From Desulfosudis oleivorans (lineage in GTDB: Bacteria; Desulfobacterota; Desulfobacteria; Desulfobacterales; SURF-7), in NCBI GenBank assembly GCA_020723325.1, contig DYJD01000006.1:1-64000 (forward strand): a stretch of 64,000 nucleotides of DNA. Reading direction: 5' to 3'. Both the position numbers and the translations under genes were made by a program. Shown piece after piece: positions 31,297 through 47,400 of this stretch. Positions within the stretch are counted from its first letter, which is position 1. Every line of letters begins with the position of its first letter. The notes beneath the pieces are model-generated. The model was not told the origin of the DNA. It did no database searches and saw nothing but the letters and a program-made list of their open reading frames with translations.

Positions 31297-33138
31297 ATGC
31301 GCATGAGAGTGAAGACCAGCCTGATTGCATTGCTGCTGTTGGTTCTGGGTATGAGTGAAGGCCGGGCGGAGAAGAGCTTTAAAAGTCTGGTGGGCAATGT
31401 CCCTGTGGGTAATGTCACTCAAACCAAGCCCCTGCTCGTGCCTTATATTACCTGGGGCGGGGACATGGCCACGTTTTACGCCAACGGCGGCTTGCAAACC
31501 AAGGTCGGCAGCATTTTCGCCAAACAGGGCCTGCAGCTCCAGTTGACCGCCGGCGACAATTTCACCCAACAAGTGCGGGACTACCTGGCCGGTAAGTCGC
31601 CTTTTTTGCGCGGCACCTTCAGCATGATGGGCATGGCTTCGGAAGTGATCGGCGCGGACAGCCGCACCCAGGGCATGGTGATCGCCCAGATGACCTGGTC
31701 GGCCGGCGACCACATGGTGATCCGCACCCCCATGAAGAGCACGGCGGATTTGAAAGGCAAGACCATTGTCCTGCAGGAAGGCGGGCCCCACGTGGGCATG
31801 CTGGATGATATTCTGAACACAGCCCAGTTGAAGTGGGAGGATGTCAACATCATCTGGGCCAAGGATTTGACGGCCACACCGGATTCACCGGCGGAGATGT
31901 TCCGCAAAAATGCCAAGATCGATGCCTGCTTTGTGATCACGCCGGATATGATCGGGCTTTGCGGCGGCTTGCACAACACCGGTTCCGGCGCCGAGGGTTC
32001 GGTGAAAAACGCCCGGGTGCTGGTATCCACCGCCGACTTGTCCCGCTCCATCGCCGATGTCTATGTGTGCCGCAAGGACTTTTTCGATGCCAATACCGAG
32101 CTGGTCACCCAATTCGTGGCCGGGTACCTGAAAGCCTGTGAAGAAGTGCTGGATTTGAAAAAACAATATGAAGCCAAGGGTTCGCCGGAATACATGAAAT
32201 TGCTGCAACTGACCCAGGACATTTACGGCAAAACCGTCATCCCCACCCTGGAGGAGGATGCCCACGGCCTGCTTTCCGACTGTACTTTCGTGGGCCATCC
32301 GGGCAATGTGGCCTTTTTCACCCAGAAGAACAATCTGCACGGGTTCGCCGCCTTTCATGAAAGCGCCCTCAACCTGGCCGTGAACCGGGGCTATGCCCAG
32401 ACCCAAAAGGCCCTGCTGCCCTCGGGAATCGATTTCAACTCGCCCAAATTCATCAAATATCTGAGCAAAATCACGGTTGAAAAAACCGAACGGTTCCAGG
32501 CTGAAGCCGTGCAGAAGGAAATCGAGGAACTGAGTGCCGGCGGCGGTCTGGACGACCGCACGATTGCTTCCTTCACCATCGGCTTTGAGCCCAATCAGAT
32601 GGAGTTTGATGCAAACAAATACAGCGCCGAATACAAACGGGTGGTGGAAATGGCGGATAAATACGGCAATGCCGTGGTGGCCATCCGCGGGCATTCGGAC
32701 CCCACCAAAACCCTTTTGGACCTGGTCAAGGCCGGCATGGGCAAAGGCATTGTGAAGCGTTCCGGCACCACGGGCAATTACAACTATTCATTGAACGGCA
32801 AACCCATGGATCTGGGCGCCATACCCGCCATGATCAAGCTGATCGAAGCCGGTTATTTTGACGGGGCCGGCGAAGCCAATCCCAGGGAAACCATGCAGGC
32901 GGCCCTGAATTTATCCAAAAAACGGGCGGAGGCCGTGCGCAAGTCCATCCTCGGTTTTGCCCAATCCAAAGGGATCCGTTTTGATGCCAGCCAGATCCAA
33001 TCCGTGGGCGCCGGTATCCGGGAACCGTTCATCGCCAAACCCGCCTCCATGCAAGAGGCCATGCAGAACATGCGGGTGGAATTCCGTCTGCTGCGGGTGT
33101 CTGCCGAGGCCGCGTCCAAATCGGATTTCGATTTTTAA
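31297..33138 (+). CDS. NMT1-type solute-binding protein fused to OmpA-like domain (exported)
   Basis: A signal peptide (about residues 1-24) is followed by a periplasmic binding-protein domain of the NMT1/SsuA kind (about 45-370), with TPMKSTADLKGKTIVLQEGG and PDMIGLCGG. An OmpA-like domain then spans about 425-605, with NAVVAIRGHSDPTKTLLDL and NLSKKRAEAVRKSILGFAQ. The OmpA part has an insertion of about 50 residues before the NxxxSxxRA helix. The first domain would bind a small ligand and the second peptidoglycan, which would fix the sensor to the cell wall. GGAGG precedes the ATG at 31297. It heads a cluster with VWA, PspA, AAA+ and ABC importer genes. The ligand is unknown. Confidence 0.82.
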   Translation: MRMRVKTSLIALLLLVLGMSEGRAEKSFKSLVGNVPVGNVTQTKPLLVPYITWGGDMATFYANGGLQTKVGSIFAKQGLQLQLTAGDNFTQQVRDYLAGKSPFLRGTFSMMGMASEVIGADSRTQGMVIAQMTWSAGDHMVIRTPMKSTADLKGKTIVLQEGGPHVGMLDDILNTAQLKWEDVNIIWAKDLTATPDSPAEMFRKNAKIDACFVITPDMIGLCGGLHNTGSGAEGSVKNARVLVSTADLSRSIADVYVCRKDFFDANTELVTQFVAGYLKACEEVLDLKKQYEAKGSPEYMKLLQLTQDIYGKTVIPTLEEDAHGLLSDCTFVGHPGNVAFFTQKNNLHGFAAFHESALNLAVNRGYAQTQKALLPSGIDFNSPKFIKYLSKITVEKTERFQAEAVQKEIEELSAGGGLDDRTIASFTIGFEPNQMEFDANKYSAEYKRVVEMADKYGNAVVAIRGHSDPTKTLLDLVKAGMGKGIVKRSGTTGNYNYSLNGKPMDLGAIPAMIKLIEAGYFDGAGEANPRETMQAALNLSKKRAEAVRKSILGFAQSKGIRFDASQIQSVGAGIREPFIAKPASMQEAMQNMRVEFRLLRVSAEAASKSDFDF

Positions 33139-33162
33139 TCCTTAACTGCAAAGGGTGACGGC

Positions 33163-34119
33163 ATGAACAGGTCGGTCTGCATCGTTGTTTTCGTTTGGCT
33201 GAGTCTCCTGCCTGGTTCGGGAATGGCTGCATCCGTGGATACCGACTCCAATAACGTGGTGATCGTGCTGGATGCTTCCGGGTCCATGAGCGAAAAAATG
33301 GGCACAGCCGGCATGACCAAGATGGAAGGCGCCAAGACCGCCCTGCTGGAAGTCTTGCGCCAGGTGCCGGCCGGCACCAATATCGGCCTGCTGGTTTTCA
33401 GTTCAAGCAATCTGAAAAATAACTGGGTCTACCCCTTGGGGAAGCTGGATCCGGCTATGCTGGAGTCTGCCGTCCGGCTGCCCCAACCCGGCGGCAACAC
33501 CCCTTTGGGCGAATACATCAAAAAGGGGGCGGACAGGCTTTTGGAGCAGCGCGCCAAGCAATTCGGCTACGGCACCTATCGTTTGCTGATAGTCACGGAC
33601 GGCGAGGCCACGGAGCGCGAAAACATAGTGGAAAGAGTCGTGCCGGAAGTGATGGCCCGGGGCATCACCATGGATGTCATCGGCGTGAACATGCGCAAAG
33701 CCCACACCCTGGCCACCCGGGTGAACTCCTACCGGAGTGCCGATGATCCGGCAGCCCTGACCCGCGCCCTGAGTGCCGTATTTGCCGAGGTGGGCGGGAC
33801 CGAGCAATCCGGCACGGATGCGGAAGCCTTTGCCGAGCTTGCGCCCTTACCGGATGAGATGGCCCAGGCCATGTTGAAAGCCCTGGCCGTGAGCGGCAAT
33901 CACCCCATCGGGCAAAGCGCCGGCCCCAAGGGACTGGAAAAACCCTTGGTGGATTCAGCCAAGGGGCAATCAGCGCCCACGACACAGGCTCCCCAATCCC
34001 AGCAGCAACAGGCTGCCAAGGAGGAACAGCCGCTTTGGTATTGGGTCGTTCCGATTCTGATCGCCATTATCTGGTTGAGTCGCCGCAAATCAAAAACAAG
34101 ACGCAGCCGGAAGTATTGA
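33163..34119 (+). CDS. Membrane-anchored VWA domain protein
   Basis: A signal peptide (1-23) is followed by a von Willebrand A domain with an intact metal-ion-dependent adhesion site: DASGSMS (Asp37, Ser39, Ser41), the threonine in GGNTPLG, and VTDGEAT. A Pro/Gln-rich linker, a C-terminal TM (PLWYWVVPILIAIIWLS) and a basic tail RRKSKTRRSRKY follow. So the VWA domain is periplasmic and tethered to the inner membrane. VWA domains mediate metal-dependent protein contacts, often with AAA+ partners or substrates. It lies between the two SBP-OmpA genes (24 and 16 nt), so they probably form one complex. Confidence 0.88.
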   Translation: MNRSVCIVVFVWLSLLPGSGMAASVDTDSNNVVIVLDASGSMSEKMGTAGMTKMEGAKTALLEVLRQVPAGTNIGLLVFSSSNLKNNWVYPLGKLDPAMLESAVRLPQPGGNTPLGEYIKKGADRLLEQRAKQFGYGTYRLLIVTDGEATERENIVERVVPEVMARGITMDVIGVNMRKAHTLATRVNSYRSADDPAALTRALSAVFAEVGGTEQSGTDAEAFAELAPLPDEMAQAMLKALAVSGNHPIGQSAGPKGLEKPLVDSAKGQSAPTTQAPQSQQQQAAKEEQPLWYWVVPILIAIIWLSRRKSKTRRSRKY

Positions 34120-34135
34120 AAGGATCCATCCACCC

Positions 34136-35716
34136 ATGAGCGAAGAAAAGGTCAAAGGGATTTTGGCAGCGGCCGTGATTTGGATTCTCATCATCGGCCT
34201 CTTGGCAGTGGCTGCGAAATTTTTGATTCTGCCTTATTTTCAAAAGGAATTGGTAAAGGAGACCGGATCGGAAAGTCAATATAAACATGAGATCAAACTC
34301 GCGGCGGATTCCTTTTCCGGATATTGTCTGCTGCGCTCGCCGGCCATGCAGAAATTGCTTAAAAGCCAGGGCATCAAACTGACCATTCAGGACGACGGGG
34401 CGGATTATGCGGCCCGGATGAAGGCCCTGGCCAAACAGGATGTGGCCATGGCGGTGTTCACCATTGATTCCTTTGTGCTGAATGCCGTGAAGCTCAACAA
34501 TTTTCCGGCCAGCATCGTGCTGGTGATCGACGAATCCGCAGGGGCCGATGCCATTGTCAGCCATAAAGACAGCGTGGGCAGCATCCAGGACCTGGATGAT
34601 CCCCAGGCAGGCCTCGTACTCACTCCCGGCTCTCCCAGCGAATTTCTGGCCCGCACGATCATCGCTCATTTCAACCTGCCCCGCCTGCCGGAAAAATGGC
34701 TGATCAAAGCCGACGGCGCGGCGGATGTGTATAAAGCCTTTGTGGGCGCGGATCCAAAACAGAAAAGGGCCTATGTATTATGGGAACCGTATGTCACCAA
34801 GGCCCTGAGCAACAAGGATGCCCATTTGCTGCTGGACAGCTCCAAACTCAAAGGTTATATAGTGGATGTCCTGGTGGTGGAACGCAATTATCTCAAGGAC
34901 CATGGCGAGTTGGTGTCGGCTGTGGTGGAAGCCTATTTAAAAACCGCCCATTCTTACGCGCAGCAAAGCGATGGAATGAAGACCCTGGTGCTGGAAGATG
35001 CCGGTCAAACCGGCGCGGAGAAATTGGATGCCGCTGCTGCGGAGAACATGATCAAACGCATTGAATGGAAAAACACCCTGGAAAATTATGCGTATTTCGG
35101 CTTGGCAACCGGCAAGGACGATTCCGGTATTCGCAATCTGGAGGAAATCATCACCAACATCACCGAGGTGCTGGTTAAAACCGGCGCTTTATCGGAAAAC
35201 CCCTTGGCCGGCAAGGCCCATACCCTGTTTTATGCCAAGATCCTCGCGGATCTGAAGGCCGCGGATTTCCACCCCGGCAAGGCCATGAATGTAATCAAGG
35301 GTCTGGGGCCGGGAACCGGCGAGCTGGACAAGGCGCGGCCCAAAACGGTCCTGCCGCCCCTTGCCGACGCGGAATGGAAAGCCTTGGCCCCGGTGGGCGC
35401 TTTGCGCATCGAGCCCCTCGCCTTTGCCCGGGGAACGGCCCGGATCAACCTTCAAAGCGAACGGGACCTGGATCAGTTGGCAACCCGGCTGGCTTCCTGG
35501 CCGCAATATTATCTGCGCATCGAAGGGCATGCCCGGGCCGAGGGCGATCCCCAGGCCAATCTGCAACTGGCCATGGAACGGGCCCAGGCCGCGGCCGATC
35601 GGCTGATTGCCGCCGGGGTCGAACCCAACCGAATCCGGACTTTTGCCGCCCCGCCGGGCGGTAGTGAAGGGGATTCGCAATCCGTATCTTTTATTGTGGG
35701 TTCGCCCCCGTATTGA
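34136..35716 (+). CDS. Membrane-anchored NMT1-type binding protein fused to OmpA-like domain
   Basis: The N-terminus has one uncleaved TM (about residues 8-30, GILAAAVIWILIIGLLAVAA). A binding-protein domain (about 50-330) follows, with DSFVLNAVKLNNFPASIVLV, VLWEPYV and YIVDVLVVERNYL. The OmpA-like domain is at about 415-522, with ARINLQSERDLDQLATRL, YYLRIEGHARAEGDPQANLQ and AMERAQAAADRLIAAGVEPN. It is a second, diverged copy of the architecture at 31297, anchored in the membrane rather than released. It would span from inner membrane to peptidoglycan. The ligand is unknown. Clean spacing (16 nt) shows it is in the same operon. Confidence 0.82.
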   Translation: MSEEKVKGILAAAVIWILIIGLLAVAAKFLILPYFQKELVKETGSESQYKHEIKLAADSFSGYCLLRSPAMQKLLKSQGIKLTIQDDGADYAARMKALAKQDVAMAVFTIDSFVLNAVKLNNFPASIVLVIDESAGADAIVSHKDSVGSIQDLDDPQAGLVLTPGSPSEFLARTIIAHFNLPRLPEKWLIKADGAADVYKAFVGADPKQKRAYVLWEPYVTKALSNKDAHLLLDSSKLKGYIVDVLVVERNYLKDHGELVSAVVEAYLKTAHSYAQQSDGMKTLVLEDAGQTGAEKLDAAAAENMIKRIEWKNTLENYAYFGLATGKDDSGIRNLEEIITNITEVLVKTGALSENPLAGKAHTLFYAKILADLKAADFHPGKAMNVIKGLGPGTGELDKARPKTVLPPLADAEWKALAPVGALRIEPLAFARGTARINLQSERDLDQLATRLASWPQYYLRIEGHARAEGDPQANLQLAMERAQAAADRLIAAGVEPNRIRTFAAPPGGSEGDSQSVSFIVGSPPY

Positions 35717-35726
35717 GACGCTGCCC

Positions 35727-36512
35727 ATGTTGGATAATGCCAAAGCCTTCCTGGATCAAGATCGATTCAGGAAAAAAGTATTGCTGAAACTGGCGGCCGA
35801 TCCGTTTTTTCTGGCCCCTTTTGTGGTCGGGGTAACCGATCTTCTGGCCCTGTGGACTTTCAACCTGGACTCGGGCCTGGCTGTTTTTGCGGGAATCGTC
35901 GCCATTCTGGCGGCCGTGGGCTATTTTTTCACCCGCCTGATGCTTGGAAAAAAGTCCTTGGCAACGGAAGCCTTGGAATCCCTGCAAAAAGAGGCCCGGG
36001 CCGAACGTGATAAAAGATTGGACGAGCTGGATCGCCGGCTGGCGGCCGACGGTGATCCCCGAACGGAAATCTGCCTGCGGGATTTGCGGGCTTTGGCAAG
36101 CGCTTTTGAAGAAAGCCGGGATGCCATGATCGCCCGGGCCAACGGCGCGACCACGGAAATTCTAGGCGGCGTGGAACAGCTTTTTCAACGCTGCGTGCAT
36201 TCCCTGGAGAAATCCCTGGAACTGGGCTACACCGCCGAGCGCATGACCAGCAAATCCGCCCGGCAACCCATTTTACAAGAGCGGGAGCGGATCATTGCGG
36301 AAGTCATGCAAACCATCCCCCAATTGGGCCATGTGCTGGCTTCCATTCAGGCCCTGGAAGTGAACGGCAGCAGTCGTGCTTCTGATCTGGCGGCCATCCG
36401 CACTGAACTGGATCAAAGTCTGGAAGTGGCCAAGAAAGTAAAGGAACGTATGCAGTCCATGGAAAAAGAATTTGATTTGCCGGAGGGGGTGGATGAGAAA
36501 GGCGGTAGTTAA
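35727..36512 (+). CDS. Two-TM coiled-coil protein, 261 aa, unknown
   Basis: I recognise no family. Two membrane segments are near the N-terminus (FFLAPFVVGVTDLLALW and AVFAGIVAILAAVGYFF). A long cytoplasmic, largely helical region with coiled-coil character follows (ESLQKEARAERDKRLDELDR, RTELDQSLEVAKKVKERMQS). MLDNAKAFLDQDRFRKK at 35727 is the first sensible start after the previous stop at 35716. Being next to pspA, it could be the membrane partner that recruits PspA, in the way PspB/PspC do elsewhere, but it has no sequence resemblance to them that I can see. Inference only. Confidence 0.7.
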   Translation: MLDNAKAFLDQDRFRKKVLLKLAADPFFLAPFVVGVTDLLALWTFNLDSGLAVFAGIVAILAAVGYFFTRLMLGKKSLATEALESLQKEARAERDKRLDELDRRLAADGDPRTEICLRDLRALASAFEESRDAMIARANGATTEILGGVEQLFQRCVHSLEKSLELGYTAERMTSKSARQPILQERERIIAEVMQTIPQLGHVLASIQALEVNGSSRASDLAAIRTELDQSLEVAKKVKERMQSMEKEFDLPEGVDEKGGS

Positions 36513-36605
36513 TAAAGGGAAAAAAATACTTTGTGCATGGTGATTTTGTTCATGCATTTAAGCCTTATGCATGACATGTTCAGCTTTTCAACCCTTGCGC
36601 GGGCC

Positions 36606-36632
36606 TGTGTGGGAGCGGCTTCCAACCGCAAT
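36606..36632. repeat. REP-like hairpin (TGGGAGCGGCTTCC family)
   Basis: TGTGGGAGCGGCTTCCAACC contains the core GCGGCTTCCAACCGC, which can form a small hairpin. Near-identical copies are at 48577-48601 and 53827-53851. These are dispersed REP-like elements. Confidence 0.6.
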
Positions 36633-36689
36633 TATTTCATTGGTTTTTGACGATTTGCTATGCTTATCTGAAAATTATGAATATCATTG

Positions 36690-36820
36690 ATGGCCTCGTA
36701 AAAAGTCCCAACCGCTGTCACTCCCGTGTGGGCGGGAGTCCAGAACCACTCGAAAAAACTGGATTCCCGCCTGCGCGGGAATGACGGAAAAAGGTGTTTT
36801 ACGACTTTTTTCGAATGCAT
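36690..36820. repeat. BIME-like pair of inverted REP hairpins
   Basis: Two hairpins, ACTCCCGTGTGGGCGGGAGT (36720-36739) and ATTCCCGCCTGCGCGGGAAT (about 36763-36782), face each other with outer TGTCA and TGACG ends. CGTAAAAAGTC lies at the left and ACGACTTTTTTCG at the right. This arrangement is typical of bacterial interspersed mosaic elements spread by REP-associated transposases. It splits the SBP-OmpA genes from pspA, in a 349-bp gap that holds no gene. Confidence 0.6.
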
Positions 36821-36861
36821 CACAATTTGACCACAATTATAATTCTAAGGAGGAGGACCCA

Positions 36862-37695
36862 ATGTTTAAAGCACTAGCCCGATGGTTGAAAGCGATCGGA
36901 TATCTACTGACTGGCCAGTTGGATTCGGCCCGGAGAACCCTGGACACGAATCCGCATGTGGTGCGCGCCAAGTATGACGCCATTGTCCAGGAGAAAACCG
37001 GCCGGATTCAGCAATACAAGCAGGCCGTGGCCGGACTCATTGCCCAGCAGGAAAACAAGATTGCCAAAGTGAAAGCCCTGACCGGCGAAGTCAAAAAACT
37101 GGAGGACCTCAAAGCCGGTGCTATGGCCAAGGCCAAACAGCGGGTGAGCACCCTCCAGGCCGCAGGACGTTCCAAGGAAGACATTCAACATGATGAGGAT
37201 TACATGAAATGTCTGACCGCTTTCAATGATTTCAGCTCCACTTTGGCGGAAAAACAGGCCCGTATCGACGAGCTGGAAGCGGATGTCAGCGATTACGGCA
37301 ACCGCATCAAGGAGCATAAGGTTCAGCTCCAGCAACTGGTGCGCGAGATCGACAAGATCAAGGCCGAATCCACCGATGCCGTGGCCGACATTATTACGGC
37401 CAGGCAGGAAAAAGAGATCGCCGACGCCTTTTCCGGCATTGCCGAAGATGGGACGGAGAAAGAACTACAGCGCATGCGGGAATTGCGCCAGGAAGTGAAA
37501 GCCGAGGCCCGGGTCTCCCAGGAACTGGCCGGAACCGATACCCGCGCCCAGGAGGCGGATTTCCTCGAATATGCCCGAAAATCCACTGCCAGCAATGAAT
37601 TTGATGCCCTGGTAGGACTGTCTGCGGATGCGGACAAAACCGCCCAGGAACCGGAGGCGAAAACCACCCAGAAGGCCTCGGCTCTGCCAGAGTAA
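36862..37695 (+). CDS. pspA: PspA/IM30 family membrane-remodelling protein
   Basis: This 277-residue, almost wholly helical protein starts MFKALARWLKAIGYLLTGQL, the short amphipathic membrane-binding helix of PspA/Vipp1. Long coiled coils follow (QENKIAKVKALTGEVKKLED, KQARIDELEADVSDYGNRIK, QLVREIDKIKAESTDAVADI). PspA proteins form ESCRT-III-like polymers that bind and repair the inner membrane under stress. The C-terminal 60 residues are poorly conserved and end in an acidic, Ala-rich tail. AGGAGGA precedes ATG at 36862. There is no PspF-type activator nearby, so regulation differs from the enteric phage-shock system. Confidence 0.88.
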   Translation: MFKALARWLKAIGYLLTGQLDSARRTLDTNPHVVRAKYDAIVQEKTGRIQQYKQAVAGLIAQQENKIAKVKALTGEVKKLEDLKAGAMAKAKQRVSTLQAAGRSKEDIQHDEDYMKCLTAFNDFSSTLAEKQARIDELEADVSDYGNRIKEHKVQLQQLVREIDKIKAESTDAVADIITARQEKEIADAFSGIAEDGTEKELQRMRELRQEVKAEARVSQELAGTDTRAQEADFLEYARKSTASNEFDALVGLSADADKTAQEPEAKTTQKASALPE

Positions 37696-37775
37696 GGAGG
37701 GGATTGTAAAAGCGGAACTCAGGAGACAGAATTCAGGCAGTGCTCCAATGGTAGAATCGCTTGTCGTGGCTGTTT

Positions 37776-37828
37776 GATTTGAATTTTGGTAATTCGAATT
37801 TGTTTCGAGTTTCGATATTCGAATTTCG
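37776..37828. repeat. AT-rich TTCGAA dispersed repeat
   Basis: A stretch with GGTAATTCGAATTTGTTTCG and ATATTCGAATTTCG lies between pspA and the binding-protein gene. Its reverse complement closely matches 43567-43620, and a shorter version lies at about 21288-21317. It is a dispersed repeat of unknown origin. Confidence 0.5.
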
Positions 37829-37859
37829 CACTTCATCTAAATAGAGGAGGAAATGGCTT

Positions 37860-38933
37860 ATGATGCGGAAAAACCTAATAAGCACCACCATTTTACCGGT
37901 TTTGGTAGTCATACTGCTTCTCTTCCAGGGAGCGGCACTGGCTGAAAACAAGCCGTCTTTTTCACTGGCCTGGAGTGAATACCCCTCCTGGAGCACCTTC
38001 GGCGTGGCCGATGCGGTCAAACTCATCAACGGGAAAAAAGGCCAGACCGGCCCCATTGAAGATAAATGGGGGGTGGATATTGTGTTGAATGAAGCCGATT
38101 ATGATTCCTGCCTGGTCATGTATGGCTCCAACCAGTGCGATGCGGTCTGCATCACCAATATGGATGTTCTCAGTCCGAGTTTGACGCGTCCTTCCACGGC
38201 CGTGCTGCCGACATCCACCAGTTTCGGCGCCGATGCCTGCATTGTCACGGCCGATATAAACAACATCAAACAACTGCGCGGCAAAAAAGTATACGGCCTG
38301 GCCAAAACCGTTTCCGAATACTGCTTTGTGCGCAATCTGGAAATTCTGGGGGAGAAGGAAAAAGACTTTCAGTTCACCAATATGGATCCGGCTGCCGCGG
38401 CCCTGGCCATGCAGCAGAAACAGAAAGGCTATGAGGCCATTGTGGTCTGGAATCCATTTGTGCTGGAGACCCTGAACAAACGCAAGGACACCAAGGTGCT
38501 GTTCGACTCCACCAAGATCCCCGGCGAAATCATCGATATGGTGGTAATCGGGCAGGCGGTGCTGGAACAGCCCGGCGGCGCGGCCTTTGCCGGGGCTCTG
38601 ATCGAGACTTTTTATGCCGTGAACCAGCGCATGGCCGATCCCAAAACCGCCGACGACACACTAGTGGCACTAGGGGAAAAATTCTCCAACCTCAATTTGC
38701 AGTCCATGCGTGAAGTGGTCAAGCAAACTCAATTTTACTCCACAGCAGAACAAGGGATAAAAGTCCTGACGGATAAAGGCACCAAAGACATCATGGAACG
38801 GGTCATCCATTTTTGCGTGGAGCATGAAATTGTGCCGAAAAAACCGGCGGTGGGTTACGGCAATGCAGCCGAGGCGCCTGGTATGGCTTTGCGTTTTGAT
38901 CCCGGATATATCAAGAAACTGGGTAGTAAATAA
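37860..38933 (+). CDS. ABC importer solute-binding protein (NMT1/SsuA-like)
   Basis: A 357-residue periplasmic binding protein has a signal peptide (about residues 1-28, ending ALAEN). The mature protein begins PSFSLAWSEYPSWSTFGVAD and has CDAVCITNMDVLSPS, KQLRGKKVYGLAKTVSEYC and EAIVVWNPFVLETL. These belong to the NMT1/taurine-sulfonate type of type II binding proteins. It lacks the OmpA domain of the two paralogues upstream and is followed by its permease (1-nt overlap, TAATG) and ATPase. Several cysteines in the ligand domain are unusual for the family. The ligand may be a sulfonate, amine or similar small compound; I cannot tell which. Confidence 0.85.
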   Translation: MMRKNLISTTILPVLVVILLLFQGAALAENKPSFSLAWSEYPSWSTFGVADAVKLINGKKGQTGPIEDKWGVDIVLNEADYDSCLVMYGSNQCDAVCITNMDVLSPSLTRPSTAVLPTSTSFGADACIVTADINNIKQLRGKKVYGLAKTVSEYCFVRNLEILGEKEKDFQFTNMDPAAAALAMQQKQKGYEAIVVWNPFVLETLNKRKDTKVLFDSTKIPGEIIDMVVIGQAVLEQPGGAAFAGALIETFYAVNQRMADPKTADDTLVALGEKFSNLNLQSMREVVKQTQFYSTAEQGIKVLTDKGTKDIMERVIHFCVEHEIVPKKPAVGYGNAAEAPGMALRFDPGYIKKLGSK

Positions 38934-39736
38934 TGCTGCGTAAACCGCTTTCAAAAAAAATCAGTCTGCTGCTGGGGCTTGGGGCCATTGTTGGACTCAT
39001 GGGTCTTTACACCCTGATTTCCTACTGGCAGCATCAGATCAATCCGGCGGACTCCACCATTCCCACCTGGACCCAGTTGGGGGACGGTGTCCGGAAAATC
39101 ATTGAAATCAATCCCCGGGACAACCAACGCTGGATCATTTTGGACAGCCACGCCACAGCCATGCGCCTGGGAATGGGACTGGTATTCGGAATTCTGGGCG
39201 CTGTTGTCCTGGGACTTTTGATGGGTTGTTTCGACGTTTGGGAGGCCTTGCTGGTTCCGCCCATGTCCCTGCTTGCCAAGGTTCCACCCACGGCGGCCCT
39301 GGCGGTTTTTTTTGTGATGGTGGGCACCGGCGACAATATGTTTGTGACCATGATCGCCTTCGGGATTTTACCCAGTTTATCCCAATCGGTTTATCTTTCC
39401 GTGCGGGAGATTCCCGAGGAAATGCTTTTTAAAGCCTACACCCTGGGAGCAACCCGTACGGAACTGATTTGGGACATCATTTTCCAAATGATTTTGCCCA
39501 AAATCCTGGATGCCGTGCGTCTGCAAATCGGGCCGGCCATGGTTTACCTGATTGCGGCGGAAATGGTGGTGGGCGACGTGGGTTTCGGCTATCGCATCCG
39601 GCTGCAATCCCGGTTGATGAACATGAATGTGGTCTATCCGTATCTGGCCCTGCTGGCTGGCTTTGGTTTTGCCATGGACTACAGCCTCCGCAAACTGCAA
39701 CAGGCGGGCTTTGTATGGTATGTCCGGAAAAATTGA
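38933..39736 (+). CDS. ABC importer permease (SsuC/TauC-like)
   Basis: A 267-residue inner membrane permease of the binding-protein-dependent transport family has about six membrane segments. The cytoplasmic EAA-type loop is IPEEMLFKAYTLGATRTELI, which contacts the ATPase. MVYLIAAEMVVGDVGFGYRI near the C-terminus is characteristic of the taurine/sulfonate/nitrate permease group. It overlaps the binding-protein gene by one base and lies 22 nt before the ATPase gene, so the three form one importer. Confidence 0.88.
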   Translation: MLRKPLSKKISLLLGLGAIVGLMGLYTLISYWQHQINPADSTIPTWTQLGDGVRKIIEINPRDNQRWIILDSHATAMRLGMGLVFGILGAVVLGLLMGCFDVWEALLVPPMSLLAKVPPTAALAVFFVMVGTGDNMFVTMIAFGILPSLSQSVYLSVREIPEEMLFKAYTLGATRTELIWDIIFQMILPKILDAVRLQIGPAMVYLIAAEMVVGDVGFGYRIRLQSRLMNMNVVYPYLALLAGFGFAMDYSLRKLQQAGFVWYVRKN

Positions 39737-39758
39737 AAAGAGTAGGATGGAGCAAGCA

Positions 39759-40709
39759 ATGAACCGGGAGATCGTGCTGGAATGTCGTCATATCAGTCAT
39801 TGGTTCGGCCGTAAAAAGGTCCTGCATGACGTTGATCTCAAAATCATCCGGGGCGAGATCGTGGCCCTGGTGGGGCCTAGCGGTTGTGGTAAATCCACCT
39901 TGTTGCGGGCCATTGTGGGCACCCATCCTCCCTGCCAGGGCGAAGTGCTCATCCGCTCCGGGGCTGGGGCAGAAGCCAAGCTCGTGGGCGGTCCCGGCCG
40001 GGACCGGGGGATTGTGTATCAGCAGTATTCCCTTTTCCCTTTTCTCACGGCCCGGGAGAATGTGGCTCTCGGCCCCATGCTGGATCAGACCGATATCCCC
40101 TTTCGTCTTCTACCCTTCACTGGATGGCGCAAAATCCGCAAGCAACATTTGCAGGAGGCCGACGAGTTGCTGGAGACCTTGAAACTGGGCGAAGCGGTAA
40201 ATCTGTACCCCCATGAAATGTCCGGCGGCATGCGCCAACGGGTGGCCATTGCCCAGGCCCTGATCATGCGGCCCACGATTTTGCTGCTGGACGAGCCCTT
40301 CGGGGCCCTGGACGAGGCCACCCGCGAAGAACTCCAGACCATGTTGCTGACCCTGTACGCGGAAAATTGCACCCGCAAAGCCCAGGGTCAGACACCGGCC
40401 CATACCATCCTGATCGTCACCCACGAACTGAATGAGGCCCTTTATGTGGGCGACCGGGTGTTGGCCCTGTCCCAGTATTGGAATTGGAAGGCAGCGGGTT
40501 TTCAGGAACACCCGGGTGCCACCATCATTTACGATCGGGTGGCCCCGGTTTTTTTGCCGGATCAGGAAATGGAATATGAAGTTTTGCGGGCCCAGCGCAA
40601 AACCATTCGGGCCACGGCTTTTGAAGAACAGTTTTCCCAGTCCAGAAACGCGCAAATCCGCTTCTGGGAGGAAATTGAGGCCGGTAAAGGCATGGGAGTA
40701 CTGCAATGA
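39759..40709 (+). CDS. ABC importer ATPase (SsuB/TauB-like)
   Basis: This cytoplasmic ATPase carries Walker A GPSGCGKST, Q-loop YQQYSLFPF, signature MSGGMRQRVAIAQAL, Walker B ILLLDEPFGALD and the H-loop in IVTHELNEAL. It has an insertion before the signature and a C-terminal extension of about 60 residues not usual in simple importers. That extension could be a regulatory or docking site for the adjacent AAA+ protein (inference). I chose ATG 39759 because GGAG lies just upstream; ATG 39747 is an alternative. Its stop overlaps the AAA+ gene start by 4 bp. Confidence 0.9.
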   Translation: MNREIVLECRHISHWFGRKKVLHDVDLKIIRGEIVALVGPSGCGKSTLLRAIVGTHPPCQGEVLIRSGAGAEAKLVGGPGRDRGIVYQQYSLFPFLTARENVALGPMLDQTDIPFRLLPFTGWRKIRKQHLQEADELLETLKLGEAVNLYPHEMSGGMRQRVAIAQALIMRPTILLLDEPFGALDEATREELQTMLLTLYAENCTRKAQGQTPAHTILIVTHELNEALYVGDRVLALSQYWNWKAAGFQEHPGATIIYDRVAPVFLPDQEMEYEVLRAQRKTIRATAFEEQFSQSRNAQIRFWEEIEAGKGMGVLQ

Positions 40710-42520
40710 AGGATTGTCCTTTTTTAACCAAGGCCGGAAAAATCATCAATTCCGATCAAACCCGGACCCTGCTGTTCACCGGCAATGTCCACGACCTGTT
40801 TCCCTTGGACGTTTCAGAAGCGACCACCTATATGCCCCTGGTGGATTTTCTCACGGCCCAATGGCGCATGCCGGATCGGATCATTTTAGTGTATGAACTG
40901 AACGGCCCCATCCGGTTCATGGAAAGCAAGGACCGCGAAAAGATCCGGGATGCCTGGCTGCGGTGGCGTTCCGGTTTTGATGCCGACACCCTGGCCATTC
41001 AAAAAATGCTGGCTTCAGCCAAAACCAGGGCGCATCTGGAAACCCTGCACAAAACTTTTGACGACAACCTGCTGGCTGCGGTGGGCAATCCCACCGTGGC
41101 CCTGGAATTTCTGCGGCAGATCTGCCTGTGCTCCCGGTCCCTGGTGGACGGCAAGCCGGCTCTGACCGAGAACCTGATCATCATCATCGAGGCCGGTGAA
41201 ATGCTGATTCCAGAAGGGGAGATCAGTCATTTATCCGATGCGGACCGGCATCGCCTGGCCATTTGCAATGACTGGTTTGCGGATCCGGGGTTCATGAACA
41301 GCGACGATTTTGTAGTGCTGCTGGCCGAATCCCGCAGCCTGATCAACCAGCGGGTGGCGCGCCTGCCCCAGATCATGGAAGTGCCCATTGAGGCGCCCAA
41401 TCAAAATTTGCGCCGGGAATTCATCGACTGGTTCATGGGGCGCCTGCCGGCAGGGAAAGAGCTGCGCCTGTGGGGCACTGTTGAGGAATTGGCCCAGTAT
41501 ACAGCGGGCCTTTCCATTCATGCCCTCATGCAGTTGCTGAAGGGGGCCGCGTACGAGGAGCGTCCGCTATTACCCGGCGCGGTAGTGGCCAAGGTGGAGG
41601 AATACATCCAAAGCCAATTGGGCGAAGATGTGGTGGAGTTCAAGAAGCCCAACCATAAATTGGATGATCTTGTGGGCTTTGAACGCCTCAAGACGTTTTT
41701 AAGAAACGAGCTGATCCCCCGCCTGCAGATGCGCGACGCCGCGGCTTTATCCGGCGCAGCCGTGTGCGGGCCCATCGGCGGCGGCAAGACCTATATTTTT
41801 GAAGCCGTGGCCGGTGAACTGGATATGATCGTGATCGTGCTCAAAAATCTGCGGTCCCAGTGGTTCGGTCAGACCGACGTGACTCTGGAACGTCTGCGCC
41901 GGGTGCTGGATGCCCTGGCCAAGGTCATCATCTTTGTGGATGAAGCCGATACCCAGTTCGGCGGCGTCGGGCCGGAAACCCACGATACGGAACGGCGTCT
42001 CACCGGTAAAATCCAGGCCATGATGTCTGATTCCACCATGAAAGGCCGGGTGTTCTGGCTGCTCATGACCGCCCGGATTCATTTGCTGTCGCCGGATATA
42101 AGGCGGCCGGGGCGGGTAGGGGATTTAATCATTCCGGTATTGGATCCGGAGGGCGCTGAACAGGAAGCCTTCATTCGCTGGACCCTGAAAGGTGTGCTGG
42201 CCCATGAACCCACGGATGAAGTCGTCAAGAGTTTTACGGCCGCCGCGCGGAACTATTCCGCGGCCAGCTTCGCCACTTTGCGGGCGGAGCTCAAAGCCAA
42301 GGTGGCCATTTTGAAACGCACCTTGCAAGTGGAAGAAGTGCAAGCCATCATCGCCGACCATATTCCGCCGGCCATTCAGGAAACACGCCGGTATCAGACC
42401 CTTCAGGCCTTGGTCAACTGCACCCGCAAGAGTCTGCTGCCGGACCCGAACATAGCGGAGACAGGGCGCCGGGCCTGGGAGGATGAGCTGCGGGAATTGG
42501 AGCAAAAGGGTGTTCGTTGA
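40706..42520 (+). CDS. Tandem AAA+ ATPase (Ycf46-like organisation)
   Basis: The C-terminal half (about residues 310-520) is an intact AAA+ module with GPIGGGKT (Lys361), Walker B VIIFVDEAD and the arginine-containing DIRRPGRVGDLI. The N-terminal 270 residues look like a second, degenerate AAA module (TRTLLFTGNVHDLFP, ENLIIIIEAGEMLIP) without a P-loop lysine. That layout, inactive plus active AAA, resembles Ycf46-type proteins. It could disassemble or remodel the PspA polymer or the VWA complex, by analogy with Vps4 acting on ESCRT-III; this is inference. It is coupled to the importer ATPase by a 4-bp overlap. Confidence 0.82.
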   Translation: MKDCPFLTKAGKIINSDQTRTLLFTGNVHDLFPLDVSEATTYMPLVDFLTAQWRMPDRIILVYELNGPIRFMESKDREKIRDAWLRWRSGFDADTLAIQKMLASAKTRAHLETLHKTFDDNLLAAVGNPTVALEFLRQICLCSRSLVDGKPALTENLIIIIEAGEMLIPEGEISHLSDADRHRLAICNDWFADPGFMNSDDFVVLLAESRSLINQRVARLPQIMEVPIEAPNQNLRREFIDWFMGRLPAGKELRLWGTVEELAQYTAGLSIHALMQLLKGAAYEERPLLPGAVVAKVEEYIQSQLGEDVVEFKKPNHKLDDLVGFERLKTFLRNELIPRLQMRDAAALSGAAVCGPIGGGKTYIFEAVAGELDMIVIVLKNLRSQWFGQTDVTLERLRRVLDALAKVIIFVDEADTQFGGVGPETHDTERRLTGKIQAMMSDSTMKGRVFWLLMTARIHLLSPDIRRPGRVGDLIIPVLDPEGAEQEAFIRWTLKGVLAHEPTDEVVKSFTAAARNYSAASFATLRAELKAKVAILKRTLQVEEVQAIIADHIPPAIQETRRYQTLQALVNCTRKSLLPDPNIAETGRRAWEDELRELEQKGVR

Positions 42521-42556
42521 TTCCAAATGATACTGAAGATAAAAAAGGGCGGGCTT

Positions 42557-43567
42557 ATGGATCAGGAAAGCATTTATAATCAGATTTTGAGCGGGCATCG
42601 GAAAGCCGGCAAGCACTATGCGTTCAATGACGACCATGATCCGCACCGGCCGGCCGATTTCTGGTTCCAGCACTCCCCCGAGGGGCTAATACTTTTCGTG
42701 GTCTTTTTTACGCAAGCTTGCCGTTGGTCCAGATGTTTGGGCTGCAATCTGCCGGGAAGGATGTCCAGCCGGCATGTTTCCTACAAAGCCATCATGGCCC
42801 AGATCGACAACCTTTTCAATCAACCGGAGATTGTCAGGCAGTATGCGGCCATCCACAAAATCATCGTCAGCAACAACGGATCAATTCTGGATCAGGCGAC
42901 CTTCTCCTCCACGGCTTTCATGTACCTGATGGCCAAGGTCAACCTGCACCTGCCCAACCTGGCTGTTTTTGCCCTGGAGACCCGGCCGGAATTTGTGGAA
43001 TTCGCCGAACTCGAATTCATTGCCCGGGCCCTGGCGGAAGGTGATACCCCAACGGAGCTGGAACTAGCCATCGGCTTTGAAGCCTTTGATGAGCATGTGC
43101 GCAACCAGTTTTTTGATAAGGGTTTGAGCTTTGAGGGTTTTGAAAAACTAGTGCGCCTGGCAGCGCCGTACAACTACCGTATTAAAACCTATTTTATGCA
43201 AAAGCCGGTGCCCCAGATGACCGATGCCGAGGCTGTGCGGGATATCGAACGGGCCATCGACTATCTCCACGGCATGGCCGGGCGCTACGGCATCCGCATC
43301 AACATGCATTTGAATCCCACCTATGCCGCCCGGGGCACGCTGCTGGAAGAGTCTTTTCAAAAGGGGCAATTTACAGCGCCTTTACTGTCGGATGTAGCCC
43401 GGGCGGTCCGACACGCCAGGGACAAGGCCCTTTCGGTTTTCATCGGCCTTTCAGACGAGGGCCTGGCCGTAGAAGGCGGCTCTTTCCTGCGGCCGGCGGA
43501 TGCCCAGTGGGTGCAAAGGTTGGAGCAGTTCAACCGCACCCAGGATTATGCTTTTCTGGAATCGTGA
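42557..43567 (+). CDS. Radical SAM protein of the Elp3/RaSEA-like type
   Basis: The cluster-binding motif reads TQACRWSRCLGCNLPG, that is C-x4-C-x2-C instead of the classical C-x3-C-x2-C. Elp3- and RaSEA-related radical SAM enzymes also have longer first spacings. The following KIIVSNNGSILD, VFALETRPEFVEF, LELAIGFEAFDEHVRN and INMHLNPTYAA match the order of SAM-binding strands in that group. The substrate is unknown; relatives act on tRNA. I start at ATG 42557; ATG 42527 is possible. It follows the AAA+ gene by 36 nt and ends the cluster, but might be an independent gene that happens to be co-transcribed. Confidence 0.72.
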   Translation: MDQESIYNQILSGHRKAGKHYAFNDDHDPHRPADFWFQHSPEGLILFVVFFTQACRWSRCLGCNLPGRMSSRHVSYKAIMAQIDNLFNQPEIVRQYAAIHKIIVSNNGSILDQATFSSTAFMYLMAKVNLHLPNLAVFALETRPEFVEFAELEFIARALAEGDTPTELELAIGFEAFDEHVRNQFFDKGLSFEGFEKLVRLAAPYNYRIKTYFMQKPVPQMTDAEAVRDIERAIDYLHGMAGRYGIRINMHLNPTYAARGTLLEESFQKGQFTAPLLSDVARAVRHARDKALSVFIGLSDEGLAVEGGSFLRPADAQWVQRLEQFNRTQDYAFLES

Positions 43568-43739: not shown

Positions 43740-44453
43740 ATGCCAAGAACCGCCCGCCAGCCGGTGGAAGTCGCCGCCGTCAAGCAGAAAATTTTGGATG
43801 TGGCCCTGGATCTGATGTTGACGGAAGGCTTTACCGCTTTAAGCATGCGCAAAGTCGCGGCGCATTCGTCCATGACGGCCGCCAATATTTACAACTACTT
43901 CTCCAATAAGGATGAAATTTATCTTGCCATTCAGACCCGCGGGTTTGAGATGCTGCTGGAACGCTTTGCGGTCATTGCGCAAGAAGTCATGCCGCCCTTG
44001 TCGAAAATCAAGGCGCTGATCCGGGCTTATCTTGATTTCGGCCTGCAGCATGCGGGTCTGTATGAAATCATGTTCACGCGCAATACTCCTAAGTTTGCGG
44101 ATTATGTGGGTACGCCATTGGAGCCCACTGCCGCGGTTGAAAAAAATACGGCCTTGCAATTGGCGGCCCTGGCCGCCCAGGTGATTTCAGACTTAATTAG
44201 TACGCGACCGGACCTGAAAGGCCTGGATCCGGCCTACCAGACTGTCCAGTTGTGGACCGCCTTGCACGGAATTGTTTCGCTTTACAACAGTCGTGTTTTG
44301 CAGGAGGCGGATGAGCAATATACCGCGACCATGGAGCGACTGGCGGCAGATCTTCTAAGGCCCTTTGAAGATGGCGCTTCGGATTCCAGGCGCAAAAAAA
44401 ATCGTAACAGCAAAGATCCTAACGCAAATAGGAGGTCTTCCAATGCCGAGTAA
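43740..44453 (+). CDS. TetR family transcriptional regulator
   Basis: The N-terminal helix-turn-helix region has KILDVALDLMLTEGFTALSM then RKVAAHSSMTAANIYNYFSN and KDEIYLAI, the usual TetR DNA-binding signature. The C-terminal ligand domain has LQHAGLYEIMFTRNTPKFAD. The last 30 residues are basic and probably disordered. AAAGGAAG precedes the ATG. The gene overlaps the glycyl radical enzyme gene by 11 bp, so both are on one transcript, and the regulator most likely senses a substrate of that enzyme and represses the operator at 43684-43720. Confidence 0.9.
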   Translation: MPRTARQPVEVAAVKQKILDVALDLMLTEGFTALSMRKVAAHSSMTAANIYNYFSNKDEIYLAIQTRGFEMLLERFAVIAQEVMPPLSKIKALIRAYLDFGLQHAGLYEIMFTRNTPKFADYVGTPLEPTAAVEKNTALQLAALAAQVISDLISTRPDLKGLDPAYQTVQLWTALHGIVSLYNSRVLQEADEQYTATMERLAADLLRPFEDGASDSRRKKNRNSKDPNANRRSSNAE

Positions 44454-47400
44454 ATCCTTCTTTTCCCAGCTTGCGAATTTATTTTTGGTTACAAACAAGC
44501 CCGTGCTTGAAAATGGTCGGGGGGCCAAGGGCATTTTGAACCGGTTGACCCATCTGGTCTTGCGTATGATGGCCCTGCAGTTCAACCTGCGGCCCTCCTT
44601 GCGCAAATATTTAAAGGGAGTGGACGGCTGGATCAATTTTTCCGTGGGCTTTTTGACTGAAAGCGGTACAGTGGAGCAGGCCATCGTGTTTAAGAACGGC
44701 CGTGTGCGGGTAATGGCGGCTATCCCTGGGGATGTGGATGTGGTCCTGAAATTCGTGGACGAAGGGGCCCTGAAGGAGATGGCCCGCAGTACACCCAATG
44801 AAATCCTTAACTTGATCCTGAAAAACCGCATGATTCTGGAAGGAAATCTCTCCTGTCTGCAGTTGTTCAATTATTATATTGCGCTGCTCATGGGAAAAGT
44901 ACACCAAAAAATGTTGGAGCGGGTGCGGCGGGCGGATGCGGTTGATCGCAGGAAGCTGTCGCCGATGAAAAAGACCGAATTGAGCCAAGTCCTTGTCCAG
45001 CGTAAAAAATATCGGATGAAAGGTGCGCCGGGCATTGATCCGGGCGTGAAATTTCTGGCCGATCCTTATCTTTCGGATTTCAGCCTCGATGACTTCCCGC
45101 GCCTCAATACATTTCTGGATCGGCATTTTACTACCCTGCCGGAAGTGTGCCCGGAAAGACCAAAACTCATGACCGATTGGTATCGCAAAAACGGTTTTGA
45201 ACAAGATATCAAGGGTGAAACCTGGTTTCCGGAATTGCGCCAGTCCCTGGCCTTTCAACACCTGCTGGAGAACAAACAGCCGATCCTATGGCCGGATGAT
45301 CTGCTGGCCGGAACCACCACCACCAAGGCCATTGGCGCCACGGTTTTTCCCGACGGTCAGGGCACCATGTTCTGGGCGGAATTGAATTCCTCAAGTGCGC
45401 GATTGCTTTGCCCGTATCGTTGCGATGCCGAGGCGGCCCGGGTTCTGCATCATGAAGTCTTTCCTTTCTGGCTGCACCGGACTTTCCGCGAATATGTGCG
45501 CACCAATTTCAATAGCCCCCTGTGTCAGCGCATCGACGAGCGTTTTGTGGCCTATTTTGTCTGGAAGTCGGTGGGCATCTCCCATACCATTCCCAATTTT
45601 AAGCGCCTGTTGCAGCGGGGGGCTGGCGGGATCATGGCCGATATCCAAAGCCGTATGGAAGACCCCGGTTTGAAAGAGGACCAGCAAAAGACCCTGCAAG
45701 CCATGCTGAATTGCCTTACTGGCCTGATTGCATATGCATCCAATCTGGCCAGGGAAGCGGAAAGAAAAGCCTGCCTGGAAAAAAATCCGCAGCGCAAAAG
45801 GGAATTACTACGTCTGGCGGAAATCTGCCGCAAGGTGCCGCAACAGCCGGCCGAGAGCCTGGATGAGGCCGTCAATACTGTCTGGATCTGTTGGGTGGCG
45901 TTGCACAATGAGAACGCCAATACCGGTCTGTCCATCGGTCGCCTGGATCAATTGCTCCAGCCCTATTTGGCGTATGATATGGACTGCTGTACTACCGCGG
46001 CGGAGAAAGCGGCCTGCCTCCGCCACGCCTTGGAATTGACCGGTTGCTTGTTCATGCGCATGGCCGACCATGTGCCGCTGTTGCCGGATATCGCCAACTA
46101 CCTCTTCGGCGGGGCTTCCTCCACCCAGGCCATCACCATCGGTGGGATCACGCCCCAGGGCGAGGACGCGGTCAATGACATGACTTATATCATTTTAAAG
46201 GTCACGGAAATGCTGGCCATCCGGGATGCCAATCTGAACGCGCGCTATCATCCGGCCAAGAACAGCGATCAATATTTGCGGCGCCTGTGCGAAGTGAACC
46301 TGATCACCGCGGCCACGCCCATCATGCAAGGTGATGAAGCCGTGTTCAAGGCTTTGGGCAAGCACGGCTATCCGGAAGAAGCCGTCCGGGATTGGGCCGC
46401 CACCGGTTGTGTGGAGCCCACCATCCAAGGCCGGCATTTCAGCCATACCGCCACGATTTTGCTGAACATGGTGGCTGCCATGGAGATGGCCCTGAATAAC
46501 GGCCGCCACCCGTTGATGCGCTGGGAAGTAGGCCCGAAAACCGGCCGCATCGAAGACGACAGCTTCCCGGATTTTGAAAGTTTTTTCAAGGCCTGGGCTG
46601 TTCAGCAGGAGTTCATCGTGGAACAGGCCGTGACCCTCAACAACTTCCTGGGAAAGGCCCACCAACAGTATCGACCCACCCCCCTTTTAAGCGCCCTCAT
46701 CGATGGTAGCATTGAAAGTGCTAAAGATGTTGTCCAAGGCGGTGCGTGCTACAGCAGCGGCGGAACATCCAATATCGGTCTGGCGGATGTGACCGATTCC
46801 CTCCTGGTCATCAAAAAGCTGGTGTTTGATGAAAAAAAAGTATCTTTCCGGCGTTTGAAAGCGGCGGTGGATACGGATTTCAAACACGAGCCGGCCCTGC
46901 TGGCCATGATTCAGAAGCAAGTGCCCTTGTTCGGCTCCGGCGATGAGGAAGCCCAGGCCATGGCCAACCGGGTGGCCAAAACCGTACATGACGCCTATGC
47001 CCGGCACACCCTCTACCGCGGCGGGCCTTATACCGCCGGTTTTTGGTCCATGTCCCAGCATGTGGCCTACGGCAGCCTTTCCGGCACCCTGCCCTCCGGT
47101 CGCCTGGCCGGCAAAGCCTTCACGCCGGGCTTGACCCCCAGTCCCAAGGCTTCCAAGAATTTTCTGGACAATATCGCCGCGGTGGCCAAGCTGGACCCGG
47201 AGAACCTGGACAACAATCTGGCCTTTAATGTGAAATTGGCTGTGGGGCCCAATGATTCACGGGAAAAAACCGTGGAACAAATGCACGCCTATGTGAAGAC
47301 TTATTTTAAAATGGGCGGGATGCAGATTCAATTTAATACCGTGGATTCGGAAACCCTGAAGGACGCCATGGCCCATCCGGAAAACTACCGGAACCTCATG

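Follow-up and report, generated by a model that had tools for sequence, protein, structure and literature searches.

A conserved nine-gene envelope unit with SBP-OmpA fusions, a PspA-like protein, an ABC importer and a tandem AAA+ protein in Desulfosudis oleivorans

An operon in which PspA or TM-Snf7 is accompanied by a two-AAA ATPase, an ABC ATPase, a permease and a PBPB-OmpA protein has been described (for example OGG56892.1; Manfredi et al. 2024, PMC11237479), and ATP-dependent membrane remodelling linked to transport was proposed for it. The same article states that the regulation of assembly in PspA homologues without an AAA ATPase is unknown. Here we analyse a locus of this kind in Desulfosudis oleivorans, located in a window of 64,000 nucleotides (contig DYJD01000006.1, positions 1 to 64,000 of the forward strand) from a source genome of 7.2 Mb. 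Ten genes, g1 to g10, lie there on the plus strand at 31297-43567. The first nine form a conserved unit that encodes a substrate-binding protein (SBP) fused to an OmpA domain (g1), a VWA protein (g2), a second SBP-OmpA fusion (g3), a coiled-coil protein with two transmembrane (TM) segments (g4), a PspA-like protein (g5), a type I importer (g6-g8) and a tandem AAA+ protein (g9).

PspA, an AAA+ protein with an inactive N-terminal copy, an ABC ATPase, a permease and an SBP-OmpA fusion are common to this unit and to the operon of Manfredi et al., whereas the main text of that article speaks of one PBPB-OmpA protein and two fusions are present here. The main text of PMC11237479 nowhere uses the terms vWA, von Willebrand, TelA, radical SAM, plasmid, bacteriophage or jumbo. 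No other published description of the unit was found among article titles in a search that lay outside most subscription journals. The core is thus not new, as an operon of PspA, AAA+, ABC and SBP-OmpA genes is already described in that article. Our preferred reading, to which we assign a probability of roughly 0.45, is that the unit is a wall-anchored importer coupled to the assembly of a PspA or TelA coat on the inner membrane, the coat being recycled by the AAA+ motor.

Conservation and layout of the unit

GTDB genomes were scanned with g1, which gave 111 relatives. Eighty of these were examined, plus two loci from relatives, and the loci were annotated with profiles of the g1-g10 genes and of a TelA variant. 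L026 and L044 were found to be one contig, leaving 81 distinct loci; L044 was dropped from the locus counts and kept as a row in the residue alignments. All loci were found through g1, and the counts describe what accompanies this gene.

Forty-four distinct loci with at least 9.5 kb downstream of g1 were found to comprise 28 PspA-type loci, seven TelA-type loci and nine of neither type. The VWA, g3, g4 and SBP genes were observed in all 28 PspA-type loci, and the permease, ABC ATPase and AAA+ genes in 26 of the 28 each. The gaps fall in L051 (no permease, ABC ATPase or AAA+), L068 (no AAA+) and L073 (no permease or ABC ATPase). The seven TelA-type loci hold the VWA, g3 and two-TM genes throughout, the SBP in six, the permease in five, the ABC ATPase in four and the AAA+ gene in three. 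Among the loci with neither PspA nor TelA, L066 and L102 show only g1-g2-g3, L070 adds the AAA+ gene, L081 shows only g1, and other partial sets are found in L048, L055, L094, L099 and L113. Of 69 distinct loci that extend 1 kb or more downstream, 68 contain the VWA gene, and of 58 that extend 3 kb or more, 57 contain g3; L081 is the exception in both counts. The AAA+ gene lies upstream of g1 in ten planctomycete loci. Among named strains, Botrimarina colliarenosi and Aeoliella straminimaris (L080, L087) encode the pair of g5 and g9, and Desulfogranum japonicum DSM 18378 (L115) is of the TelA type.

We conclude that g1-g9 are a real unit whose genes and their arrangement are conserved in many phyla; a chance neighbourhood is ruled out by the conservation of the gene set across loci. 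An earlier note, made from the letters of the window, had listed ten plus-strand genes of these kinds, and all are present after the correction of two starts. The note had regarded them as one candidate system built of parts not normally found together, and had proposed a search for conserved neighbourhoods. This search found co-occurrence beyond the importer triplet, in 28 PspA-type loci, and the parts were observed to recur together across loci, contrary to their supposed rarity. Nine genes of the proposed system are co-conserved across phyla, but the tenth, the radical SAM gene g10, is an occasional neighbour and not core: it lies at most 80 bp from a unit gene in five of 81 other distinct loci (L027, L059, L098, L111 and L112).

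The intergenic gaps from g1 to g10 measure 24, 16, 10, 349, 164, -1, 22, -4 and 6 bp. The start of g5 was corrected from 36781 to the ATG at 36862, which stands behind AAGGAGGAGG and gives a product of 277 amino acids, and the best start of g8 was corrected to 39759. With gaps of 349 and 164 bp around g5, one might suppose two or three unrelated units lying side by side under separate promoters, and a promoter-like site was indeed found in the gap before g5, while a gap of 287 bp occurs at the same place in L036. However, the gap before g5 is accounted for by the insertion of a dispersed repeat (36686-36800, right end set by the query, no strand), of which at least nine further copies with 83-95% identity were found in the same genome when 40 of 269 candidates were scored. 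Furthermore, g4 and g5 are separated by less than 100 bp or overlap in 33 of the 35 other PspA-type loci measured (the remaining two have 207 and 287 bp), the gene set recurs, and promoter-like sites are no more frequent than in shuffled DNA (12 against 9.1, standard deviation 3.2). We consider separate units highly improbable.

The PspA-like protein, the AAA+ protein and their envelope partners

Gene g5 (36862-37695, plus strand) encodes a divergent PspA/IM30-like protein that ends in EFDALVGL, a linker and LPE. The PspA assignment had been said to rest on clear motifs, which could not be upheld, as g5 has no PF04012 match at E 0.1; the kinship was recovered through relatives, a Vipp1 profile and the fold. 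Thirteen of 30 g5 relatives match PF04012 at E of 0.1 or below (best 5.3e-06), and several also match other coiled-coil families. When a profile of 30 family members was compared with PDB chains, Vipp1 and PspA came best (E 0.0063-0.011), followed by unrelated coiled coils at 0.031 and up. An AlphaFold2 model (predicted local distance difference test, pLDDT, 79.5; predicted template-modelling score, pTM, 0.51) contains an N-terminal helix, a long hairpin (residues 31-100 and 112-195) and further helices, as in Vipp1. The first five Foldseek ranks of this model are all Vipp1, the top E of 5.2e-04 being the only one below 0.001, and VIA-align gives Vipp1 a Z of 11.7 (133 residues, root-mean-square deviation 2.3). 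On these profiles and this model g5 is called PspA-like here, as a probable divergent relative within the ESCRT-III superfamily and not a Pfam member.

The tail of g5 is conserved at both ends of a loose linker, with a mean majority identity over 30 rows of 0.83 for EFDALVGL, 0.27 for the linker and 0.89 for LPE. An [LI]PE end followed by at most one residue was found in 33 of 36 distinct complete g5-type C-termini, a count made without L041 (contig end) and one L068 fragment. A short conserved tail after such a linker resembles what might be an AAA+ handle on a polymer protein. In a separate locus (L116; G000:C98, about 86286-86720) we noticed a same-strand pairing of PspA and VWA genes, where the VWA protein is secreted-looking and a second one; the PF04012 match there (4.2e-12) is the sole one of its genome at E of 0.001 or below.

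The AAA+ protein g9 (40706-42520, plus strand) starts before the importer ATPase gene g8 ends at 40709, so that the 4-bp overlap reported in the earlier note was confirmed, as was its tandem AAA+ architecture. Walker A, Walker B and arginine fingers of the second AAA domain, which looks active, are present in all or nearly all rows with letters; the first domain is degenerate and its Walker motifs are lost. A pore loop R-S-x-W-[FY]-G, with WFG in g9, was observed in 25 of 25 rows. The predicted model (pLDDT 88.4, pTM 0.78) retrieves p97, Cdc48, Rix7 and NVL with Foldseek over 500-675 columns, with query TM-scores of 0.31-0.51 for this protein of 604 amino acids; the low scores may reflect a differing placement of the two halves. 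The protein is not a Vps4: no MIT domain was matched in g9, PF00004 being the sole Pfam family at E 0.01, and its N-terminal half is the degenerate AAA domain. Kinship with cyanobacterial Ycf46 found no support in a literature search. AAA+ homologues with 24-31% identity were noticed in L003 and L028-L035, where no other unit gene was found in the stretches concerned; they were left uncounted. The weaker relatives in L029, L030 and L034 have a different setting, with a DegT-type aminotransferase next in L029, and the neighbouring genes in L030 and L034 look alike by eye.

The two fusions differ in a way that was found to be highly conserved. Gene g1 (31297-33138, plus strand) encodes an NMT1-like SBP (Pfam NMT1 3.5e-07) with a signal-like N-terminus and an OmpA domain (0.0011, under the Pfam cut-off). 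The product of g3 (34136-35716, plus strand), identified by Pfam and NCBIfam, has an N-terminal TM anchor, an OmpA domain at 1.1e-12 and an NMT1 match of 6e-04 (20.2 against a cut-off of 20.5). Both were read through an Asp and an Arg of OmpA domains, which we take to be the site that holds diaminopimelate. In the alignment, all 81 rows with a letter retain Asp468 of g1, and the same holds for Arg543. The Arg of g3 (Arg482) is likewise kept in 67 of 67 rows with a letter, but the Asp position is occupied by R, G, S, A or Q in all 67. Since the site is kept in g1 and its Asp is lost in g3, the OmpA domain of g1 should bind peptidoglycan and that of g3 should not, at least in the usual way. The loss in one of the two domains would be a sign of a division of labour between the fusions.

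The VWA protein g2 (33163-34119, plus strand; Pfam 2.6e-12) was described beforehand as tethered and as having an intact metal ion-dependent adhesion site (MIDAS), and this was borne out by five kept residues and hydrophobic termini. D37, S39 and S41 are conserved in 77 of 77 rows with a letter, and T113 and D146 in 74 of 74. The N-terminus is hydrophobic and signal-like; the C-terminal stretch reaches a 15-residue Kyte-Doolittle maximum of 2.27, whereas a stricter 19-residue scan flagged the N-terminus only. The C-terminal stretch was observed in 34 of 36 PspA-type proteins against two of 12 of the TelA type. Gene g4 (35727-36512, plus strand) encodes two hydrophobic segments and a coiled coil, with no Pfam or NCBIfam match. 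A search with 33 members of its family (E 0.1) yielded only scattered matches to SNARE, syntaxin and other coiled-coil families, and g4 was rejected as an ESCRT-III protein, PF04012 being absent among the 25 listed of the 33 families matching any member. The protein shares homology with the two-TM protein of TelA-type loci (hhalign 98%, E 2.9e-13, 159 columns).

A complete type I importer is encoded by g6-g8, all on the plus strand. The SBP g6 (37860-38933) carries no OmpA domain and is TIGR03427-like (putative urea SBP), with an NCBIfam match of 5.4e-45 that lies below the family cut-off; the permease g7 (38933-39736) is TauC/SsuC-like with BPD_transp_1 (Pfam and NCBIfam), and the ATPase g8 (39759-40709; Pfam ABC_tran 4e-33) contains Walker A, signature and Walker B motifs. 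The SBPs resemble taurine, sulfonate and urea families of NCBIfam, which suggests a small organic compound with nitrogen or sulfur as the solute. These SBP resemblances and the intact ATPase motifs would also suit an ordinary scavenging importer with accessories, in which three SBPs serve one permease, the OmpA domains merely retain the SBPs in the periplasm, and PspA or TelA is a passive stabiliser of a leaky or heavily expressed transporter. A reduced version in phage G, described below, agrees with it in keeping just the importer, SBP-OmpA, a small protein and a TM-anchored PspA-like protein. However, an ordinary importer needs neither the VWA protein and the second fusion, which are present in 28 of 28 PspA-type loci, nor the tandem AAA+ protein, which is present in 26, and the Asp loss in 67 of 67 rows of one OmpA domain suggests divided tasks. 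We consider an importer of this kind a rather improbable explanation of the unit.

The radical SAM protein g10 (42527-43567, plus strand) is TIGR01210-like (archaeosine RaSEA), with an NCBIfam match of 3e-31 and 108.8 bits against a family cut-off of 212.15, which it falls short of. Further downstream, a TetR-like gene at 43740 is followed by a protein of 1042 amino acids at 44365-47493 (by eye), which resembles a glycyl-radical enzyme in having RISGYNAYF near its C-terminus. A strong AT skew (0.28 and 0.22) was noticed at 10001-14000, contrasting with the rest of the 64-kb stretch.

The TelA type, the g1 tree and mobile copies

In a sister clade the slot of PspA is occupied by TelA (PF05816; 8e-72 in L027). 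TelA was rejected as a distant PspA, the hhalign probability being 0.5%. The C-termini of the operon TelA proteins mostly carry a hydrophobic-acidic stretch (12 proteins) that three TelA proteins outside the system lack, these controls being few. A TelA-type copy is absent from the D. oleivorans source genome, where TelA gave no match. On a Sphaerotilus plasmid (L117, 7887-10750) a vWA gene was noticed directly after TelA with the importer absent.

A quick g1 tree of 80 rows (Shimodaira-Hasegawa-like approximate likelihood ratio test, SH-aLRT, only; long-branch warnings) has one branch that parts 37 PspA-type from 12 TelA-type rows, consistent with one change, and 31 rows belong to neither group. 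Within the PspA clade, D. oleivorans groups with Desulfatitalea (Desulfosarcinaceae), with a metagenome-assembled genome whose title is Proteobacteria, with G028, a member of the same order, and with CSSED10-310. The other rows of this clade belong for the most part to Verrucomicrobiota, Planctomycetota, Lentisphaerota, Hydrogenedentota and Sumerlaeota. The remaining Desulfobacterota rows fall in the TelA-side clade. Among 395 sampled genomes of the same phylum, g1 was found at E of 1e-30 or below in three, the source genome included. Because of this placement and this rarity, we infer a horizontal transfer of the unit into these Desulfobacterales.

Six Vibrio plasmid records carry g1 with 31.5% identity. 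In two of these plasmids (L120 and L123, the latter from the record annotation only) the genes for the ABC ATPase, g1, VWA, g3, two-TM protein, TelA, SBP and permease were found to follow one another in this order. Huge phages carry the unit as well. The uncultured phage LR756511.1 (595 kb) contains g1-VWA-g3-g4-PspA-SBP-permease-ABC together with Terminase_6N (4.4e-06, over its cut-off) and a Gp23 capsid protein (5e-87), and a 436-kb IMG/VR record holds the same eight genes plus the AAA+ gene in two pieces (Gp23 1.1e-16). The split of this AAA+ gene (L124 20923-21848, L127/L128) is either real or an assembly error. A 107-kb IMG/VR record breaks off after g1-VWA-g3-g4; as it gave no match to Terminase_6N or Gp23, its phage nature rests on the IMG/VR classification. 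A 359-kb IMG/VR record belongs with the TelA-type loci. Its g1 reads in two frames, its Gp23 match is weak (2.2e-07 over 41 positions) and its VWA protein lacks a hydrophobic C-terminus by eye. As markers, Gp23 matched none of 14 control genomes and three of five records, and Terminase_6N six of 14 controls and two of five records; phrog_2, whose function is unnamed, matches 11 of 14 control genomes and was not used as a terminase marker. The viral copies keep the MIDAS in four of four cases and the g1 Asp/Arg pair in three of three tested, and the g3 Asp is absent in four of four. The 595-kb phage shows no g9-type match and a PspA without the tail, and the 436-kb record has both (n=2).

A pspA-like gene beside terD is reported for Jug phages in PMC12363816. 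In Bacillus phage G, whose laboratory host is Bacillus (Priestia) megaterium, genes gp243-gp250 were found to be a reduced version of the unit, with a permease, an ABC ATPase, gp246, a TM-anchored PspA-like protein (gp247) and SBP-OmpA proteins (gp249 and gp250); no VWA or AAA+ match was obtained in 18.7 kb around this cassette. A scan with gp249 gave 25 viral loci, phage G again (L131) among them; with L131 left out, phage G plus 24 others were examined as 25 phage-G-like loci (L122 and L130-L154, several of them near copies). Permease, ABC and SBP-OmpA are present in 25 of 25, a gp246-like protein in 23 and a gp247-like protein in 19, and in the six loci without a gp247-like call an antisense open reading frame (ORF) had been picked. 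Two of the 25 also have, on the same stretch, an ORF that matches the TelA-type AAA profile. Ten of 13 gp247 relatives match PF04012 (best 1.9e-09) and the family can be aligned to g5 (210 columns, E 3e-05, probability 73%), while a PDB search with these relatives did not find Vipp1. The gp246-like protein was not supported as a TelA relative and gave no convincing Pfam match.

Carriage by six Vibrio plasmid records and huge phages, the occurrence in three of 395 genomes of the phylum and the annotation of TelA as toxic-anion resistance would fit a mobile protective module. Such an envelope-stress or anti-attack system would sense damage or an intruder between membrane and wall through the SBP-OmpA and VWA proteins and seal the membrane with PspA or TelA and the AAA+ protein, the importer acting as a signalling ABC protein. 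We regard it as doubtful. PADLOC gave weak or generic matches only, to LmuB (g5), mad3, AriA, mad8 and PtuA (ABC ATPase) and IetA (AAA+), and a known defence system was rejected, no match being specific. Nor was a conserved regulator or defence partner found: among 1287 flanking ORFs of at least 100 amino acids no cluster extends beyond four loci, and a response-regulator domain is the most widespread.

Proposed mechanism and relation to known systems

We regard the unit as a real, widely conserved and mobile envelope system, for whose mechanism a hypothesis is offered. The architecture can be read directly from the genes, and from it we infer the mechanism and the substrate. According to the preferred reading, a wall-anchored importer with a recycled coat, the nine core genes would make one envelope machine in which g1 grips peptidoglycan and so keeps the importer in place between the membrane and the wall. 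The SBP domains of g1, g3 and g6 would present their ligand-bound lobes to the permease, with the VWA protein and g4 serving as scaffolds. Solute binding or the transport state might set where a g5 coat forms under the membrane beside the importer. The AAA+ motor would then catch the exposed C-terminal [LI]PE tail of g5, thread it and dismantle the coat, and in the sister clade TelA would be the coat protein in place of PspA. It is plausible that the AAA+ protein acts on PspA as Vps4 does on ESCRT-III, a comparison made in the earlier note and already published for this type of operon (PMC11237479), to which the g5 tail and the intact pore loop are added here.

Several observations weigh against this mechanism. 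The case for it consists of sequence and predicted folds, and an ordinary importer accompanied by passenger genes would also be conceivable. Lacking a PF04012 match at E 0.1, g5 itself stays below the Pfam PspA/IM30 cut-off, and its hairpin is a common shape, unrelated helical hairpins equalling or exceeding Vipp1 in VIA-align with Z up to 12.9. L086, L091 and L092, which branch early and on long branches in the g1 tree, have the AAA+ gene and lack the [LI]PE tail. Only three of the seven TelA-type loci with full downstream sequence have an AAA+ gene nearby, and the same role for TelA and PspA would follow from position, because kinship between them is not detectable. Tethering of the VWA protein is not universal, because only two of 12 TelA-type proteins have the C-terminal stretch. 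Among the viral copies, no g9-type AAA+ match was found in the whole 359-kb, 595-kb and phage G records (E 1e-5 for phage G), and the comparison of tail and AAA+ extends to two phages only. LR756511.1 is the assembly of an uncultured phage, and the IMG/VR records are contigs from metagenomes.

A broader idea, in our view rather improbable, is that the unit is a mobile machine for guarding the membrane, whose coat can be exchanged (PspA, TelA or membrane-anchored PspA) and which is driven by the wall-anchored ABC importer. If this were true, huge phages and plasmids would carry it so that, while they reside in the host, its inner membrane stays either intact and energised or closed to other phages. 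The unit offers a concrete pair for the question of how bacterial ESCRT-III proteins are assembled and disassembled, namely g5 with its conserved tail and g9 with its threading loop, together with natural swaps, namely TelA and, in a phage in which no g9-type match was found, a PspA that lacks the tail. A bacterial coat protein is here connected with an importer and with the cell wall, and versions of the unit are carried by plasmids, huge phages and the cultured phage G.

With ESCRT-III/Vps4 (CdvB/CdvC) the unit shares an ESCRT-III-like coat protein adjoining a classical AAA ATPase and a conserved C-terminal tail of the coat, but here the AAA+ protein has two AAA domains, resembles p97 and Rix7 and carries a degenerate AAA domain in the place of MIT. 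The PspA-like protein is common to the enteric Psp system (PspF-PspABC), whereas PspB, PspC and PspF found no match among the ten proteins, the part of the genome that was searched, in agreement with the earlier note. The permease, ATPase and SBP families are those of the TauABC and SsuABC importers, to which two extra SBP-OmpA fusions and four further core proteins are added here. TelA (PF05816) fills the PspA slot in the sister clade and is unrelated to PspA by profile comparison. Phage G gp243-gp250 has the permease, ABC ATPase, PspA-like protein and two SBP-OmpA proteins in common with the unit, while the VWA and AAA+ proteins are unmatched there. To the core that was already described, the present analysis adds a delimitation of the whole unit, the exchange of PspA for TelA, the asymmetry of the OmpA domains, the [LI]PE tail, the carriage by Vibrio plasmids and huge phages and the reduced version in phage G.

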